From: Acidobacteriota bacterium
GTDB lineage: Bacteria > Acidobacteriota > Terriglobia > Acidiferrales > UBA7541
Reading direction: 5' to 3'
Length of the DNA: 64,000 nt
NCBI GenBank assembly: GCA_013286465.1
Contig: JABDFR010000006.1
Span: forward strand, 1 to 64,000
In this document: piece after piece, positions 24,101 through 33,226 of the stretch
Layout of the letters: the number at the start of each line of letters is the position of its first letter
Position numbering within the stretch: the first letter of the stretch is position 1
Translations under genes and position numbers: made by a program
The notes under the pieces: generated by a model
What the model was told of the DNA's origin: nothing
Database searches by the model: none
The model's input: only the letters and a program-made list of their open reading frames with translations

Positions 24101-24136
24101 TCGTAGGATGCCGGCAGGGACGCCGGCGCTACTTAG
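24101..24136 (-). repeat. Solo end of the TAAGTAGCGCCGGCGTCCCTGCCGGCATCCTACGA repeat
   Basis: Near-identical to the ends at 33528 and 33672; contains stop codon of the 24133..29103 gene. Confidence 0.8.
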
Positions 24137-27100
24137 TGGCCGACCAGCACCCAGGACGCCCACTTTGATGGGTCATCCTTCCCTGTGCTTTTGATAATTT
24201 TCGCGCGGATTTCTAGTTGGGCTTTGCGCAGGGCTGTCCATTTGTCTTCGCCGGTTAGCCAGTGTTTGTAGAAGAGTTCGGCTAGTTCGGCGGATTCTTT
24301 GTCACTCATCGGCCAGAGAGAAATCAGGACGGTGGCGGCGCCGGCTCGCAGCATCGCGCGGGGCATGCCGTAAATGGCTTCGCGGGCGCTCTTGGGATCG
24401 ATTTTTCCCGCGGAAGTATTCAAGACCACGAGTTCTGTTCCGTTGAGATCGAGTCCTGCGGACTCGTAGGCGCTCAGGATTCCATCTTCAACATCGGGCG
24501 GCGGCTCGACTCCGGATAATGCTGCGTCCGCACCGGCGAAGAATATTCCTGTGCGAAGCGACGGATCGTCGAGGCCCGCGGGGATTTCATTTGCGGATTG
24601 CGCGTCGCCGCCTTCGGGTTGCGGCAGATAAAATCCGGAGGTCGCGATGTGAAGGACTCGCGGGCTGTGCGCGCCTCGAATGGCTTCTTCGACCGCGAGA
24701 GGACCTTCGTAAAGCTGAACCTGCCAATTCTTTTCCTGCAGCATTTTTGAAATCGATTGAACTTCCGCGCCGCTATCCGGCAGACGCGCGAGAATTGTCT
24801 TTGTGTCCGCGGCCGGTGGCGCCGATGGAATCGCGGGTGCCGGCATGCCTTTTGCGACTGCGTCGATCGCGGCGAGCGCGGAGCGATACTGCGTCTCGGA
24901 CAACGCGAAATCTGGATCGCCGAGAAGGACTGCGGTTTTCGCGGGACTATCCGTGCGCGGAGCGGCGGCTCGAACTAAATCTCGCGTACTTGGAACCATG
25001 TGCAGGTCGTATTTCTCGAGCAGCACCTTGTGGTCGCCCGCGGTTACGGCGCCGAACGCTACTTCGTTGAGCGCGCCGTCTGGGGAGATGTAGACGCGAG
25101 TGGCACCGCCGAGCGCGGATTCGATCGGCTTCCAGAATGCTTCGTAGAATTTCGACGAGTCGGGATGGGCGGCGGGTGCGAGCGAGCTGTGATACGCGCG
25201 TAGAGGCTCTGCCTCAAGCGTGGCTGCGTCGCCGAGAGTCACGAGCGTCGGCGAATTCACATACGTAGTGAGAACCAGAACCACATAGATCGGTTTGCTT
25301 GCGCGGGTTTCGGCATCGGCAAAATCGAAGCGCAAATACTCAACGGCCGCTTCACCCTCGTGCAATTGTTTGCGGATATCGCTCAGCGTCGGCGGGACCG
25401 TTGCTGGCGCTGGAGGATGCGAGCCGAGGCGCCGGGAATATTCGCGTTCAAGCTGCATCGATTGGTCGGCAAGCTTCTCTTCGGCCGCGCGCCATTCGGC
25501 GGTGTCGGGATGTTTTTGCGCGAAGAAAGCTGCCAGCTGCGATCTTTTAGAGGCGAGTTGTTCGAGTAGCGCTGTTGCTTCCGGGTCGCTGCCGGCGGTG
25601 GCGCGATGCCGCGCGAGAGTGAAGCTTGCGAGCGAGACCGCCTTCTGCCAAACGGCGAGATCGTACATGCGTGCGGCTTCGCCCGGATCGCCTTCGCGAT
25701 TGGCATAGGCGAAGCTGTAAGCATTCGGGAAGAAATCCTGCACCGCGTCGAGCATGGCCTTGCGGTCTTTGTCACTCATCGCGGGCGGCGACTGCGAGAG
25801 TTGCGCGCGCAAGGTGTCTTCGCGGCGATGGAAGAATTCCTGGGCTTTGCCGCGATTCCCTTCGTAATAATAAAGAACCGCGAGATCCTGAACCGTGTCG
25901 CTGGTGCGCGGATGATTTGGGCCGAAGACTTTTTCTCGAATGGCTAGGGCACGGAGGAGAAGCGGTTCGGCTTCCTGCGTCTTGTATTGCGCGAGGTAGA
26001 CTTCGGCGAGCGAGTCGGCAGTCAGGGCGAGATCGGGTGAATCCTTGCCGGAAAACTTGGTCTGTATTTCGAGAGCGGACGAATAGAATTTCGCGGCGTC
26101 GTCATGCTTGCCTTGCAATTCGTAAAAATCGGCGACGCTATCGAGGGTCTTTGCGTAGAGCGCGGTGGTTTTGCCTTGATCCTGCTCCAGGAGCTTGAGC
26201 GCATGCTCGGCGGCCTCAGTGCCTGCGACATATTGATGACGCGTCTTGTAGAGGTCCGCGAGAGTGGAATAGGAATCAGCGAGAGAGGACGGATCGGTGC
26301 CCGGCGTTTTCTCTTCGATGGCGATGGCCTGGCTTAGGCTGCGCGCCGCGTCGAGATATCTTCCCTCCGCGCGATAGACGGCCGATAGACCATTCAACAA
26401 ATCCACGATCTGCGAGCGATTCGCTTCTGTCGCGGCGGGCAACAGCTTGAGCGCGGCGCGGTAGAGCGGCCCGGCTTCGGCATATTGGCCCTGATCCGCA
26501 TAGAGACTGGCTAGATTCGAAAGTGGTCCGGCGAGCTTGGGATTGTCGGCGCCGAGTTTTTTTTCTTGGATAGAGATGGCGCGACGGAAGAGAGGCTCGG
26601 CTTCCGGGAACTTCCCTTCCGAGTTGAGCACTGCGGCGAGATTGTTGAGCGCGAGAACGACTGCATCGCCATTCGCGCCTGCATTTTTCTCGCGAATTTC
26701 GAGTGCGCGGCGCAACGGCGCCTCGGCATCCGCGTATTTTCCTTGCGCCTTATAAACGTCGGCGAGATTGGTGAAAGTTTCGGCGAGGCCGTTGCTATTG
26801 GGATACAGATCTTCGCGAATCGCCACTGCTTTGAGATAGGTCTCTGTGGCTTGGTCATACTGATTCGCGGTTTTGTACAGGTCGCCGATTCCATTCAGCG
26901 CGTAGGCTTGCATGCCGCGATCGTTCAAATCGCTCTCGATGGCCAGCGCCGAGCGGTAGGTGTCGAGCGCAGGGCCGGTCTGCCGCTGGCGCGCGAGAAC
27001 GCCGGCGAGATCGAGTAACGTGTCCGCTTCATTGGCCTTATCGTGCAGCTCCTGCAGGATGATCACTGCTTGCCGGTAGGCTTCCTGCGCCGCGGGATAT

Positions 27101-29103
27101 TGGCCGTCGGCTTCGTAAGTGTTGCCGAGATTGTGGCGCGCGATGGCTTCGTTGGCGCGATCTTTGGCCTTCACAAGCATTTCGATCGACGCCTGGAACT
27201 TTTCGATCGCTTCCTTATATTTTTCGCCGCCCTTCATGAACAGGCCGAGATTATTGGTGGCCACGCCGATGGTGCGAATGTCCGGGGACTTGGCGTTCTG
27301 AAGCGAGGTAAGCGCCTTATTCTGCCAGGCGATCGCATCGTCATATTTTTCGGAGCGATAGTAGAGCGTGGCGAGAAATGAATAGTGATCGGAAATGCCG
27401 GGAGCGTTGGCGCCGTTGTCGGCCTCGTAAAGCTGGATGGCTTCCTTCTCTAGCGTGATTGCCGGGGCGTAATCTTGCTTTTTGAAATAGGCGAAGGCGA
27501 TATTGCTGGTGCTGGTGGCGATGTCTGGATCTTTCGGATCGAGAATTCTCTTGCGAATTGCGAGAGTGAGATCGAAATTCTTCAGCGCTTCATCGACCTT
27601 GCCTTCGTCGACGAGAAAGAACGAGAGCGCATCCAGGCGATAGGCGGCTTCTTTGGAACTCTCGCCGTTCGCTTTCTTCACATCCTCGAGAGCCTCGCGA
27701 AGAAGCGCTTCGGCCTCGTCGTTCTTTTTCGCATCCTTGTAAATGCGAATGAGATTCTCGATGGTGGCGATTTTTTCGGAGTCGCCGGGTGGAAGGGCTT
27801 TTTCGCGGATGCTCAGCGATTGCTTGTAGTACTTCTCGGCGTCGGCATAGTTGCGCTGGTCGTCGAAGAGCACCGCGAGATTATTGATTACCGTGGCGAG
27901 CACGGCTTCATCGCCGGGCTTCGCTACCTTGGTGCGTATAGCGATGGCACGGCGGTAAATTTTCTCGGCTTCGGGGAATTTCTTTTGATCGTGCAGCGTG
28001 ACGCCGTAACTTTGCAGAGCGTCGGCGAGCTCGAGCGAGTCCGCGCCGAATACCGTTTCACGTATGGCGATTGCTTTTTCGAAATATGGCTCGGCGTCCG
28101 AGTATTTCCGTTCGCCCAGGAGGACGCGTCCCAAGCCAATGTTGATGCGCGCGTACTCGAAGTCTTCGGTCCCGATTGCTTTCGACCACATATCGAGTGC
28201 CTGGCGACACGACGTTTCGGCGTCCGCAGACTCGCCCTGAGATTGCTGAAATCCCGCGAGGGCCTCAAGAACTTCGGCCGCTTCCGCCGGGGAACCCGCC
28301 TGACCGAAGAGACGGATGGAATCTTCAAGTTCCTTCTTCACCTCACCGTTCATTCCCAATTTCTGATGGGTGGCGCCCAAGCCGTAAAGCACGGCGGCCT
28401 GGCCGTGTACATCTCCGATCGATTGAAAATCCTGGAGGGAACTTTTCAAAACTGGAAGCGCCGCTTTTGTCGCTTCCGCGTCGCCTTGATAGCCGAGCAG
28501 GCCCTGTGCATACGTCTTCTCGGCGCGGACGCGAACTTCGTCGCCGGGTTTTGACGGCCGTAGCTCGGTGATTTGAATCGCAAATACTCCGGCGACGGCG
28601 CTTGGATCGAAGCTGCGAACCTCGATTCGGTAGGTGCCCGCAACGGGTGCGATGATCGAGACGTTCTCCGGGCCGAAGGATCCGTTCAAGCTATCCATCG
28701 TGCCGACGTCCTTGCCGTCCGGGCCGCTGATGGCCAGCACTATGTCGATGCTTTTCTGATCAGCCACCACGTGAAGAAAATCACCCGCTTGCAACGCGAT
28801 ACGGTAGGCGTGCTTGTCGCCGCCTTTTAGAATGTCCTGCACGGGCGGCTGACCGAGAGCGAGAAATTGCGGCTCTGCTGGCGCTGCTTGTTGGGCGGTT
28901 GGCAAGCCTGCGGCGAGAATTTCACACGTTTCAAGCGTGCAAGAAACGAATGGATCGGCGTTCAAAGGGTAAGCGCTGGCCGAGGCGCCCGCAGCGATGA
29001 GCAAAACGGAGGACGCGAGCAGCCCGAAAAAAACGGCAGCGCGAGCGGAATAAAATAAAAAGGGGGGGCGGCGGTTAGACATCCGTTCTGGCTGAACATT
29101 CAT
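24133..29103 (-). CDS. Exported giant TPR protein with N-terminal PPC-like domain and C-terminal CHAT (caspase-like) domain; apparent catalytic residues replaced by Ser
   Basis: Signal peptide 'FYSARAAVFFGLLASSVLLIAAGASASA'; PPC-like 'KHAYRIALQAGDFLHVVADQKSIDIVLAISGPDG..GTYRIEVRSF'; many kinesin-light-chain-type TPRs; CHAT-like 'RVLHIATSGFY' and 'LVVLNTSAGK...MLRAGAATVLISLWPMSDKESAELAELFYKHWL'. Confidence 0.88.
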   Translation of the reverse strand: MNVQPERMSNRRPPFLFYSARAAVFFGLLASSVLLIAAGASASAYPLNADPFVSCTLETCEILAAGLPTAQQAAPAEPQFLALGQPPVQDILKGGDKHAYRIALQAGDFLHVVADQKSIDIVLAISGPDGKDVGTMDSLNGSFGPENVSIIAPVAGTYRIEVRSFDPSAVAGVFAIQITELRPSKPGDEVRVRAEKTYAQGLLGYQGDAEATKAALPVLKSSLQDFQSIGDVHGQAAVLYGLGATHQKLGMNGEVKKELEDSIRLFGQAGSPAEAAEVLEALAGFQQSQGESADAETSCRQALDMWSKAIGTEDFEYARINIGLGRVLLGERKYSDAEPYFEKAIAIRETVFGADSLELADALQSYGVTLHDQKKFPEAEKIYRRAIAIRTKVAKPGDEAVLATVINNLAVLFDDQRNYADAEKYYKQSLSIREKALPPGDSEKIATIENLIRIYKDAKKNDEAEALLREALEDVKKANGESSKEAAYRLDALSFFLVDEGKVDEALKNFDLTLAIRKRILDPKDPDIATSTSNIAFAYFKKQDYAPAITLEKEAIQLYEADNGANAPGISDHYSFLATLYYRSEKYDDAIAWQNKALTSLQNAKSPDIRTIGVATNNLGLFMKGGEKYKEAIEKFQASIEMLVKAKDRANEAIARHNLGNTYEADGQYPAAQEAYRQAVIILQELHDKANEADTLLDLAGVLARQRQTGPALDTYRSALAIESDLNDRGMQAYALNGIGDLYKTANQYDQATETYLKAVAIREDLYPNSNGLAETFTNLADVYKAQGKYADAEAPLRRALEIREKNAGANGDAVVLALNNLAAVLNSEGKFPEAEPLFRRAISIQEKKLGADNPKLAGPLSNLASLYADQGQYAEAGPLYRAALKLLPAATEANRSQIVDLLNGLSAVYRAEGRYLDAARSLSQAIAIEEKTPGTDPSSLADSYSTLADLYKTRHQYVAGTEAAEHALKLLEQDQGKTTALYAKTLDSVADFYELQGKHDDAAKFYSSALEIQTKFSGKDSPDLALTADSLAEVYLAQYKTQEAEPLLLRALAIREKVFGPNHPRTSDTVQDLAVLYYYEGNRGKAQEFFHRREDTLRAQLSQSPPAMSDKDRKAMLDAVQDFFPNAYSFAYANREGDPGEAARMYDLAVWQKAVSLASFTLARHRATAGSDPEATALLEQLASKRSQLAAFFAQKHPDTAEWRAAEEKLADQSMQLEREYSRRLGSHPPAPATVPPTLSDIRKQLHEGEAAVEYLRFDFADAETRASKPIYVVLVLTTYVNSPTLVTLGDAATLEAEPLRAYHSSLAPAAHPDSSKFYEAFWKPIESALGGATRVYISPDGALNEVAFGAVTAGDHKVLLEKYDLHMVPSTRDLVRAAAPRTDSPAKTAVLLGDPDFALSETQYRSALAAIDAVAKGMPAPAIPSAPPAADTKTILARLPDSGAEVQSISKMLQEKNWQVQLYEGPLAVEEAIRGAHSPRVLHIATSGFYLPQPEGGDAQSANEIPAGLDDPSLRTGIFFAGADAALSGVEPPPDVEDGILSAYESAGLDLNGTELVVLNTSAGKIDPKSAREAIYGMPRAMLRAGAATVLISLWPMSDKESAELAELFYKHWLTGEDKWTALRKAQLEIRAKIIKSTGKDDPSKWASWVLVGH

Positions 29104-29283
29104 CTTAGTTGCATCAGATACTCATAGAGAGTAATAATTAGTGATTGGAAGAATGTCAACGGATAAGTCTGGCGTTCTTCCGGCAGGATTTCGAAATAGC
29201 CATTTACGGATGTTGCTTTTAGGCCGTCACGTGAGCCCAGCATGAGGCGCGAGAATTACTCGCTTCGAGTTGTGTGCAAGATA

Positions 29284-30651
29284 ATGCGTGCGGCTCTGCT
29301 CGTCTCGATTTTCCTCTTTCCTGCGGTGCTTCGCGCCCAAGAAAACCTTGCCGGACATTGGGAAGGCACCGTAACGCTTTCCGAAAAGACGATTCTCATA
29401 CAAGTGGATTTCGATCGCTCGGATGCCGGATGGAACGGCACTGTTCTTTTGCCCGAGACGACTGCGCCGGTTTATGCGGCAAAATCGGTGGTGGTGGAAT
29501 CGGCGCGGGTGCGCATCGATCTGGAGATGGGCTTTTCTTCCGTTAGCCTCGACGGACAATTGAGCGGCGATTCGATCGAGGGCACCTTCACGCGGGACAA
29601 CGCTAAAGGGAAATTCAAGATCAAGCGAACTGCGGGCGCTAAGCCATCCGCCACGGAAGCTTCTAAACGGCCGAACTCGGCGCCGCAGCCGGGGCGCGAT
29701 GAGAGTCCCACCGCTGGCCCGAGCAAGCGCGTCGGCGGTGGCGACAGTTCGCGTACCAGCGGACCACAGGTGCAGGCAGTGGCTGCCACGGCTCCTCGCG
29801 AATCTCGCGTTGCTCGCGATGATCAGGGCGAATCGCGTGGCGTGATTCCTACGGCTACGGCTGACACCGGCGATTCCGACAACGGCATGCCCAATTTTTA
29901 TGCGGTGATGTTTGCTTCCGACAATTACGATGCGAAAGATTGGCCGCATTTGAATAATCCGGTCGACGACGCGAAATCTATTGCGCGCGAATTGCATAAC
30001 TTCTATGGATTTCATGCCGAGGTCTATGAGAATCAGACTTACAGCGCCATCAAGCACATTTTGGTGGACGATTATCAGAAACGGGATTTCAAGCCCAACG
30101 ACGAGCTTCTGATTTTCTTTGCCGGACACGGCGATTTTGATCCCGACGATAACCGCGGCTACGTGATTACAAAGGACTCGTCGCCACCAGGTTCCGATCG
30201 CGATCGCGAGATTGATTTTCCGAAGCTGATTACCTGGATGGATAAAATTAATGTCGGACACATTTTGCTGGTGCTGGACATTTGCCAGGGCGGCACGATC
30301 TTCGAGCAGGAGCGCGGCAATGTGCCCGCGCCCGCGATTCACGAGACCTCTGCTGCTTTGCAACGCTTGCGTGGCGTAAAGACGCGCAAGTGCATGACTT
30401 CGGGCGGTAAGGGCGCGGTGAAGGACGGGCATGCCGGGCAGGGTTCGCCTTTCGCAACTACCTTTATTGAGGTGCTGGGCGAGGCTGGACCCAATACCGA
30501 TGACATGGTTTTGAATGTGGACGAAGTGGCCGGAAAAATTAAGAAGACCATGGGACGTTTGGCAGACAGCACTACGCCGGAATTCGGTTCTTGCGCTACG
30601 GATAAGCCTACGAGCGATTTCTTTTTCTTCTGGCAGGCGCCTTCAAAGTAA
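29284..30651 (+). CDS. Exported caspase-family (C14-like) peptidase with N-terminal beta domain
   Basis: Signal peptide 'MRAALLVSIFLFPAVLRAQ'; 'NPVDDAKSIARELHNFYGFHAEVYENQT'; 'DELLIFFAGHGDFD' (His) and 'HILLVLDICQGGTIF' (Cys). Confidence 0.87.
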   Translation: MRAALLVSIFLFPAVLRAQENLAGHWEGTVTLSEKTILIQVDFDRSDAGWNGTVLLPETTAPVYAAKSVVVESARVRIDLEMGFSSVSLDGQLSGDSIEGTFTRDNAKGKFKIKRTAGAKPSATEASKRPNSAPQPGRDESPTAGPSKRVGGGDSSRTSGPQVQAVAATAPRESRVARDDQGESRGVIPTATADTGDSDNGMPNFYAVMFASDNYDAKDWPHLNNPVDDAKSIARELHNFYGFHAEVYENQTYSAIKHILVDDYQKRDFKPNDELLIFFAGHGDFDPDDNRGYVITKDSSPPGSDRDREIDFPKLITWMDKINVGHILLVLDICQGGTIFEQERGNVPAPAIHETSAALQRLRGVKTRKCMTSGGKGAVKDGHAGQGSPFATTFIEVLGEAGPNTDDMVLNVDEVAGKIKKTMGRLADSTTPEFGSCATDKPTSDFFFFWQAPSK

Positions 30652-30734: not shown

Positions 30735-30762
30735 GGGAGCGAGGTAAACCCGCTCCCCTACG
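30735..30762 (-). repeat. Hairpin repeat GGGAGCG-AGGTAAACC-CGCTCCC-CTACG
   Basis: 7-bp stem; contains the stop codon of the 30758..33226 gene. Confidence 0.75.
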
Positions 30763-33226
30763 TTTTCTCCGAGAGTTTCTTGCGGGCAATTTCTAGCAGC
30801 TTGGGGTTGGTGCATACCTCGTAATACGAGCGAGGGCCTGGATTGCCGATCTTGGCGTCGGGCAGCAGCTCGCGGACGGAGCCTTTTCGCACTACGATCG
30901 TCTCGAGTGAATTGCCGAGCGGAAGTTCGCCGATATAAAGCTGCACTCGCTCTTTTCCCCACGGCATCGTGAAATTTCCGGCCAGCGGAGTTAGAGAAAT
31001 CTCGCCGGAGAGCTTTTCGAAGCCCTCTTCGTTCATTTCAATGCCGTTCAGATTGTAGCGGACCAGCAACTCCTCGCCTTCGTCATCGCCGACATCTTCC
31101 ATCAGCGTCTGCAGCAAGAAAACATTAAACGGCGACGGATTCTGGGCGAAAATGCGCCGCGCTACTTTCGAGCAACTCGAGAGGCGATCGGAGAGATTTA
31201 GCGCTTTCGAAATCATGATGCGCGAATCGCCGTCCATCCAGAGAGATGGCGCGGAATTCTGAAACGCGACCCCGACGCCTAGCTCGATGCGCGGCAACTC
31301 CACCGCTTCGGGACGGGCATTGTAGGCTTGCGTGACGGCCAGAATCTCGCGCGCGAGAATGCAAGCTTTGGCGACGGCTCGCTGAGTGGCGCGTGTGGAT
31401 TCGGTTTCGTAAATGGCCAGGATGATGGCGTCGCCTTCGATGAAAACTTTTGCGGCGCCGTAGCGGTCGAGCAGGCGCTTGACCGGCTCGTGCAGATTGC
31501 GGCTGAAATGCGAGGCCGGATTCAGACCGCGCGCTTGCAGATCCTTGGTGATTCCGCTCGAGCCGCGCACATCGGCTTTGATTACCGCGTGAGAGACTAC
31601 CGGGTCGTTGTCTTTTCCTGCCTCGTCGGTGAAAACCAGCTCGTACAGGCAATTATTGGCGCGCGAAAGCTCGCGGGAATGTTCCGAGCGCACCAGATTG
31701 ATGCGTTCCATCCAGGCGACGACGTGGTGGTAATTACGGCGATCGCGGCGCAGGCGAGTGAAATCTTCCGCGAATCGTAAGGCGATCGCGGGAATTTCTT
31801 CCGGCGGAATGCGGCGAATGGCACGCGCGGAATCTTCCAGTTTCTTCAGCGAAAACTTGCGGGCTGGAAATTGAGCCAGCACTTGTTCCACGCGCTTGGT
31901 TTCCTCGCGAACGACCAGCGCCTTCTTCAACTGCTGTAAGTGGACCGGAGGATTGTAGTCCATGTAAATCTGCCGGAGCTCGTAACCGGCGAAGACGTGG
32001 GCCAGCAAATCGCGTTCATCGAGACGATTCACCCATTCGCGGAGCAGCCGCTCGCGCGTTTCGGGAGGAGCTTCGCTGCCGCTCGAAGCACCGCGCGCGT
32101 CAAACAGCCGGCGCATATTTTCGGGATCATTCAGGTAATTCCCGATTCTGGCCCGATATTCTTCGGTGAGGAAATCCATCCGCTGCTTGGCCGCGTCAAT
32201 TCCGGGGCCGAGTTCCTCGATACTCAGTTCGAGAAGCGCGGCGCGCTTGCGCAGTTCTTCCGGTCCGCCGGATGGCTCGCTTGCTGACGGGCGGCGCTTC
32301 CACGGCCATGCAAACAGATCGTCGCTACCGCCGGCTTTCCGTCGCGCCTCTTCCTGCTCTTCCTCGAGACCGATCACCTCGCCTCGCAGCGCGCGGGCTT
32401 GTTCCATCAGCCGGTCGTAGGATTTGCGGCTGCGGCTGAGTTCTTCGGCGTTCTCGTCGGTGTGCACGAAATCGCGGATGAAATCGAGCAGCAGCTCCTC
32501 GAAAACTTCGAAGCGGTCCGGATCATGAATGAAGTTTCCGAGCAGGACGTAGTTCTCAAGCAGCAATGTTTCGTCCGTGCCGCCTTCGAGAAATAGAAAC
32601 CGATTGCGGAAGAGCTCGTAGATTTCCGGAAATTCCTCGCCGAATAGCGCGCGACGCGATTTCGAAAGCGCATTTTCATCCAATTCGCGCATGATTTGAT
32701 AAATCGAAAGGCCGACTTGGCGATAGATTCCGCGGCGATCGCCTTGCAGCTCGGCGATGCGCGACCGCATGACGTGCGCTTGCTCGCTGCGCTCGAAGTG
32801 GACGCCGCGCGAGTGGATCCATTCCTTGCACTCGACAATCAGGCTCGAAAACTGCGCGGTTATTTCGCTGAGCAGGAATTTCAGTACCGCGAGGCGATTC
32901 AGAATGTCCACTTCGATGTTTTGCGCGTACTTGGCGCGCGTGAGCGAAATTTGCAGCAATTCGAAGAGCTGCTTGCGAAAGCTGGAGGTGTCCGGAGCGG
33001 TGGAATTGCGCGATTGCGTGTAGGAAAAATTCAGGCTGGCAATGGCGCGAATGCTGTCGAGCAAATACTTGCGGGTTGATTCGGTAAACTTCGGGCTGAG
33101 GTAGACATCGTAGTGGATGTTGTCCAGGCCAACGTTGATGCTCTGCAAATGCAGCTCGAGCGTATACGGCTCGAGTTTCATGCGGGCCGGATGCGTGGGC
33201 GAAATTATAGTGTGCGAATCGGCCAT
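30758..33226 (-). CDS. Large soluble protein with C-terminal class III nucleotide-cyclase-like domain (tentative)
   Basis: 'AVIKADVRGSSGITKDLQARGLNPASHFSRNLHEPVKRLLDRYGAAKVFIEGDAIILAIYE...RIELGVGVAF...SRIMISKALNLSDRLSSCSKVARRIF' is reminiscent of guanylate cyclase fold motifs; long helical N-terminus. Confidence 0.6.
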   Translation of the reverse strand: MADSHTIISPTHPARMKLEPYTLELHLQSINVGLDNIHYDVYLSPKFTESTRKYLLDSIRAIASLNFSYTQSRNSTAPDTSSFRKQLFELLQISLTRAKYAQNIEVDILNRLAVLKFLLSEITAQFSSLIVECKEWIHSRGVHFERSEQAHVMRSRIAELQGDRRGIYRQVGLSIYQIMRELDENALSKSRRALFGEEFPEIYELFRNRFLFLEGGTDETLLLENYVLLGNFIHDPDRFEVFEELLLDFIRDFVHTDENAEELSRSRKSYDRLMEQARALRGEVIGLEEEQEEARRKAGGSDDLFAWPWKRRPSASEPSGGPEELRKRAALLELSIEELGPGIDAAKQRMDFLTEEYRARIGNYLNDPENMRRLFDARGASSGSEAPPETRERLLREWVNRLDERDLLAHVFAGYELRQIYMDYNPPVHLQQLKKALVVREETKRVEQVLAQFPARKFSLKKLEDSARAIRRIPPEEIPAIALRFAEDFTRLRRDRRNYHHVVAWMERINLVRSEHSRELSRANNCLYELVFTDEAGKDNDPVVSHAVIKADVRGSSGITKDLQARGLNPASHFSRNLHEPVKRLLDRYGAAKVFIEGDAIILAIYETESTRATQRAVAKACILAREILAVTQAYNARPEAVELPRIELGVGVAFQNSAPSLWMDGDSRIMISKALNLSDRLSSCSKVARRIFAQNPSPFNVFLLQTLMEDVGDDEGEELLVRYNLNGIEMNEEGFEKLSGEISLTPLAGNFTMPWGKERVQLYIGELPLGNSLETIVVRKGSVRELLPDAKIGNPGPRSYYEVCTNPKLLEIARKKLSEKT

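Follow-up and report, generated by a model that had tools for sequence, protein, structure and literature searches.

The 64,000-nt stretch of Acidobacteriota DNA analysed here (the window) encodes an apparently exported protein of 1656 residues in which a long TPR array is followed by a CHAT protease domain with serine at both of its catalytic positions. We predict from the sequence, with high confidence, that this domain is catalytically dead, and the gene itself is probably maintained. The likely role of the protein is narrowed by the fact that its divergent neighbour, 138 bp away, is an intact caspase. We therefore put forward, tentatively and as the reading that we favour, that the protein is a maintained pseudoprotease that most likely acts as a docking or regulatory partner of that caspase. 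The features of the locus are as follows.

24133..29103, minus strand: PPC-TPR-pseudoCHAT open reading frame, 1656 aa, apparently exported (open frame; Pfam CHAT, TPR and PPC; CHAT-domain homologs at most 44% identical)
28972..29103, minus strand: likely Sec signal peptide, residues 1-44 (hydrophobic stretch, then ASA/YP; by eye)
28612..28812, minus strand: PPC domain, residues 98-164 (PF04151, 24.8 bits, just below the cut-off of 25.9)
25804..28416, minus strand: TPR array, about residues 230-1100 (PF13424, E 5e-121, 13 stretches)
24139..25155, minus strand: CHAT domain, residues 1317-1655, catalytically degenerate (PF12770, E 1.3e-48)
24637..24639, minus strand: Ser1489 (codon TCC, HIATSG) at the catalytic His position (alignment to intact paralogs)
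24412..24414, minus strand: Ser1564 (codon TCC, LNTSAG) at the catalytic Cys position (alignment to intact paralogs)
24364..24420, minus strand: degenerate Cys loop, residues 1562-1580 (SACETG..GEGV in relatives, NTSAGK..REAI here)
29104..29241, no strand: intergenic region of 138 bp between divergent start codons (from the reading-frame coordinates)
29242..30651, plus strand: caspase (Peptidase_C14), 469 aa, with a signal-like N-terminus (PF00656, E 4e-13)

Catalytic positions and fold of the CHAT domain

The C-terminal domain matches the Pfam CHAT profile PF12770 over nearly its whole length (166 bits against a cut-off of 24; profile positions 5-288 of 289), which together with a caspase/separase-like fold places the protein in the CHAT family. 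Pfam finds no Peptidase_C14 domain in the protein, which thus lacks the p20 domain that marks pseudo-orthocaspases. At its other end, the N-terminus resembles those of further PPC-TPR proteins (in L206 and L207). In the CHAT part GC3 is 0.64, similar to the rest of the gene and to its neighbours; a horizontal origin was considered on grounds of composition and is unsupported, both GC and GC3 of the gene being ordinary.

A preliminary description of this DNA had claimed an intact frame of 1656 aa and the loss of the catalytic dyad (His to Ser and Cys to Ser), had suggested a profile alignment and a structure prediction as checks, and had named another His/Cys pair in the catalytic positions as a finding that would overturn the claim. 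Length and frame are as claimed, the profile alignment gave the full-length match reported above, and Ser1489 and Ser1564 fall, when aligned with intact paralogs, in the His and Cys columns, where an active CHAT cysteine protease carries its catalytic residues. Any other cysteine is excluded as the nucleophile, and with it the alternative pair, because the whole protein has Cys only at residues 55, 60 and 299 and none beyond residue 299. In a profile scan of the loci listed, both columns could be read in 134 homologous regions, and all of these have His/Cys; Ser/Ser is seen in the window protein only. The count includes overlapping copies of the same region and hence not independent proteins (the 78 aligned relatives are the cleaner sample). 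Two additional relatives (L211, L212) have His/Cys too. The change is not a point sequencing error: two or more nucleotide substitutions separate a His codon from Ser, and the loss extends to further residues, SACETG having become NTSAGK and GEGV having become REAI.

For the CHAT part, the closest relatives share 41-44% identity and come from the same genus, family and order (among the matches listed); samples of the class and phylum added no closer ones. No close ortholog of the protein was found in the family, order, class and phylum samples or among the matches listed from a scan of genome contigs. When that scan used the window sequence alone it returned 0 relatives, and an alignment-based version permitting Ser at the His position gave only His/Cys proteins among the best 80 matches listed. 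In the only genus mate, the dehydrogenase that flanks the locus has a relative (G001:C100, 70% nucleotide identity) adjoined neither by the pseudo-CHAT gene nor by its neighbours, an arrangement that is uninformative on orthology.

The suggested structure prediction, an AlphaFold model of the CHAT fragment (residue 1 being residue 1202 of the protein), reached a pLDDT of 90 and a pTM of 0.88, and in this model the domain retains a confident CHAT/separase fold. Both serines sit in the strands that correspond to the caspase His and Cys strands (282-291 and 357-364 in fragment numbering). The best Foldseek matches were Csx29/TPR-CHAT of Craspase (E 7e-12), DdvA and separase, with gingipain also found. 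Set against the otherwise comparable model of an intact homolog (L125), that of the window protein shows a longer His strand and a helix after the Cys position that starts earlier and is longer; an inactive H-sheet/C-helix state of Craspase has been described (PMC9729208), and the modelled differences recall it, in a comparison of two models only. The uncertain loops that follow both serines were considered as a sign of decay, and this was dropped, as loop confidence in the L125 model is equal or lower.

The neighbouring caspase and its possible partnership

The His/Cys dyad of the neighbouring caspase is intact, its FAGHG and DICQGG motifs aligning with those of other caspases; the preliminary description makes no mention of this. 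Over its first 140 residues the caspase is similar to the N-terminal part of larger proteins from three other genomes (G040, G010, G021), no close ortholog was found in 60 relatives, and a promoter scan of the 138-bp intergenic region gave no sigma-70-like consensus. Beyond the caspase, on the minus strand at 30758-33226, lies a gene for an 822-aa protein with no Pfam or NCBIfam match above cut-off, the C-terminal half of which looks by eye like a class III nucleotide cyclase.

A caspase gene also adjoins an intact exported TPR-CHAT gene in 7 of the 80 loci listed (L129, L135, L146, L155, L164, L168, L199), which come from Acidobacteriota and Bacteroidota. Around the TPR-CHAT genes of the loci listed, caspases account for 10 of the 135 adjacent genes versus 3 of 455 others (Fisher p=4e-5, an optimistic value given a small caspase profile and two loci from close relatives, both Winogradskyella); the caspase profile was built from a motif search blind to gene position. 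Several points count against a partnership at this locus. The nearest intact paralogs (G000:C33, G001, G007) are without a caspase neighbour, the immediate neighbours in the linked loci run in the same direction while the two genes here are divergent, and we know of no second pair of a pseudo-CHAT and a caspase.

If the protein does partner the caspase, its signal peptide would export it from the cytoplasm, and the PPC domain and long TPR array would bind a ligand or partner proteins, with the TPR array sensing or collecting. The C-terminal CHAT domain, keeping its caspase/separase-like fold and presumably unable to cleave, would then hold the adjacent caspase inactive or help to activate it, in the way that pseudo-caspases act on live caspases. 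We tentatively infer a physical or regulatory link between the two proteins. In a broader version, which we hold with less assurance, exported TPR-CHATs and exported caspases would make up an envelope module of two genes that occurs in several phyla, and the CHAT protein of this lineage would have turned into a pseudoprotease dedicated to regulating the live caspase, the bacterial equivalent of the control of caspases by pseudo-caspases.

Alternatively, the protein could be a stand-alone periplasmic receptor or scaffold that works through its TPR array; the dead CHAT domain would then serve as a structural cap or a dimer unit, and the caspase would be unrelated. The TPRs give much the strongest match in the protein, the closest intact paralogs manage without a caspase beside them, and DdvA, recovered by Foldseek, is a precedent for a CHAT domain in trans-envelope signalling. 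The adjacent caspase nevertheless agrees with the wider linkage of TPR-CHAT and caspase genes, and we consider a stand-alone role somewhat doubtful.

Pattern of change and probable maintenance of the gene

The pattern of substitution bears on whether the gene is kept. Conservation reaches at least 95% in 40 alignment columns across 78 intact relatives; 13 of these are lost in the window protein, whereas intact relatives lose at most 4 each (median 0). The losses affect the His position and the Cys loop and mostly spare the structural columns: 8 of the 10 near-invariant columns of the Cys loop are lost versus 5 of 30 elsewhere (p=6e-4, indicative only, the loop boundaries having been drawn after the losses were seen). 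In the tree, the window protein nests within the Acidobacteriota TPR-CHATs, its exact neighbours being unsure, and the loss of the dyad is derived because all of these have His/Cys. The window branch is long (1.05, compared with 0.1-0.67 for clade members), which is also consistent with relaxed constraint. With the tree fixed, this branch accounts for 24% of total tree length in the catalytic CHAT half (17% without the catalytic segments) and for 13% in the N-terminal CHAT half and TPR tail; the intervening linker, at 19%, is fast too. This pattern fits active-site loss more than general decay.

In a simulation of neutral decay to 54-66% amino-acid identity, which assumes an approximate base composition and treats all divergence as neutral, about 6-7 stops are expected per 455 codons, and 0 are present. 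The proposal of the preliminary description that this is a pseudoprotease and not a decayed gene thus finds support in the open frame, the retained core, the confident fold and the stops that neutral change should have brought, whereas the role that it suggested, a scaffold or decoy, is conjectural. Early gene decay following loss of function would account for a long branch with its biggest share in the catalytic CHAT half (24%, versus 13% in the N-terminal half) and for a single copy in one genome. It is less easily reconciled with 1656 open codons, with the retention of the TPRs and of most CHAT core residues, and with the several stops expected at such divergence by simulation, and we judge it unlikely.

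A maintained gene might instead encode a decoy or bait whose dead CHAT domain lures or reports an inhibitor or protease that targets intact relatives. Pseudoenzymes serve as baits elsewhere, and the exposed, exported location suggested by the signal peptide would suit such a role, but we recognised no effector or immunity genes adjoining the pseudo-CHAT gene; we regard a decoy as improbable. It is very improbable that the protein is still an enzyme, with Ser1564 (S-A-G-K) as a new nucleophile and a different base. A serine does occupy the nucleophile position and a lysine lies three residues further, but the His position is Ser as well, the near-invariant SACETG..GEGV is rewritten, and in the Craspase CHAT a Cys-to-Ser mutation abolished protease activity (PMC9729208). 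An assembly artefact or chimera in a metagenome bin, conceivable for an incomplete (66%), multi-contig assembly, can be set aside as highly implausible given many dispersed sense changes, 0 frameshifts and a neighbour-like codon composition.

Known systems and related loci

The Acidobacteriota exported TPR-CHATs (G000:C33, G001:C249, L125-L129) share with the window protein the TPR-CHAT layout, about 40% identity in the CHAT domain and signal-like N-termini, but they all have His/Cys, are shorter and mostly lack a PPC domain. Csx29/TPR-CHAT of the type III-E Craspase has the same CHAT fold and provides the top structural matches. Cas7-11 is longer than 922 aa; no Cas7-11/gRAMP gene lies near the pseudo-CHAT gene, the other open reading frames in the window being at most 922 aa. 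Csx29 is cytoplasmic, RNA-activated and bound to Cas7-11, with His585/Cys627 intact (PMC9729208). DdvA (8rot, 8rw5), a transmembrane anti-sigma factor, likewise has a CHAT fold in an envelope protein; unlike the window protein it is membrane-anchored and retains its Cys (LVVLAACEGG).

CHAT proteases are cousins of caspases, and dead caspases are already known in bacteria. In bacterial pseudo-orthocaspases, some of which have TPRs, the His/Cys dyad is replaced, mostly by Tyr/Ser and also by Phe/Ser, according to passages of two reports (PMC6426788, PMC3501461). The proteins described there are Peptidase_C14 p20 proteins, whereas the window protein is a CHAT, and the pairs that these passages name as common do not include its Ser/Ser (PMC6426788, PMC3501461). 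In kind, pseudo-orthocaspases are the closest precedent for a dead CHAT. We found no description of a dead CHAT domain in an otherwise intact protein in the open-access literature searched. Should the pseudo-CHAT control the adjacent live caspase, the two would offer a simple bacterial pair for testing pseudoprotease regulation, and would indicate a wider partnership of exported TPR-CHATs and caspases, seen here in Acidobacteriota and Bacteroidota.

Some of the related loci are themselves unusual. One (L072, 4081-6360; G013:C210) encodes a 760-aa TPR protein whose CHAT region consists of the N-terminal half only, and in two others (L130, L171) the TPR-CHAT match is interrupted by a stop or an ambiguous base, reflecting damaged genes or assembly errors. 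Another (L067, 8440-15494; G007:C245) carries a tandem pair of intact TPR-CHAT genes, the second truncated by the contig end.
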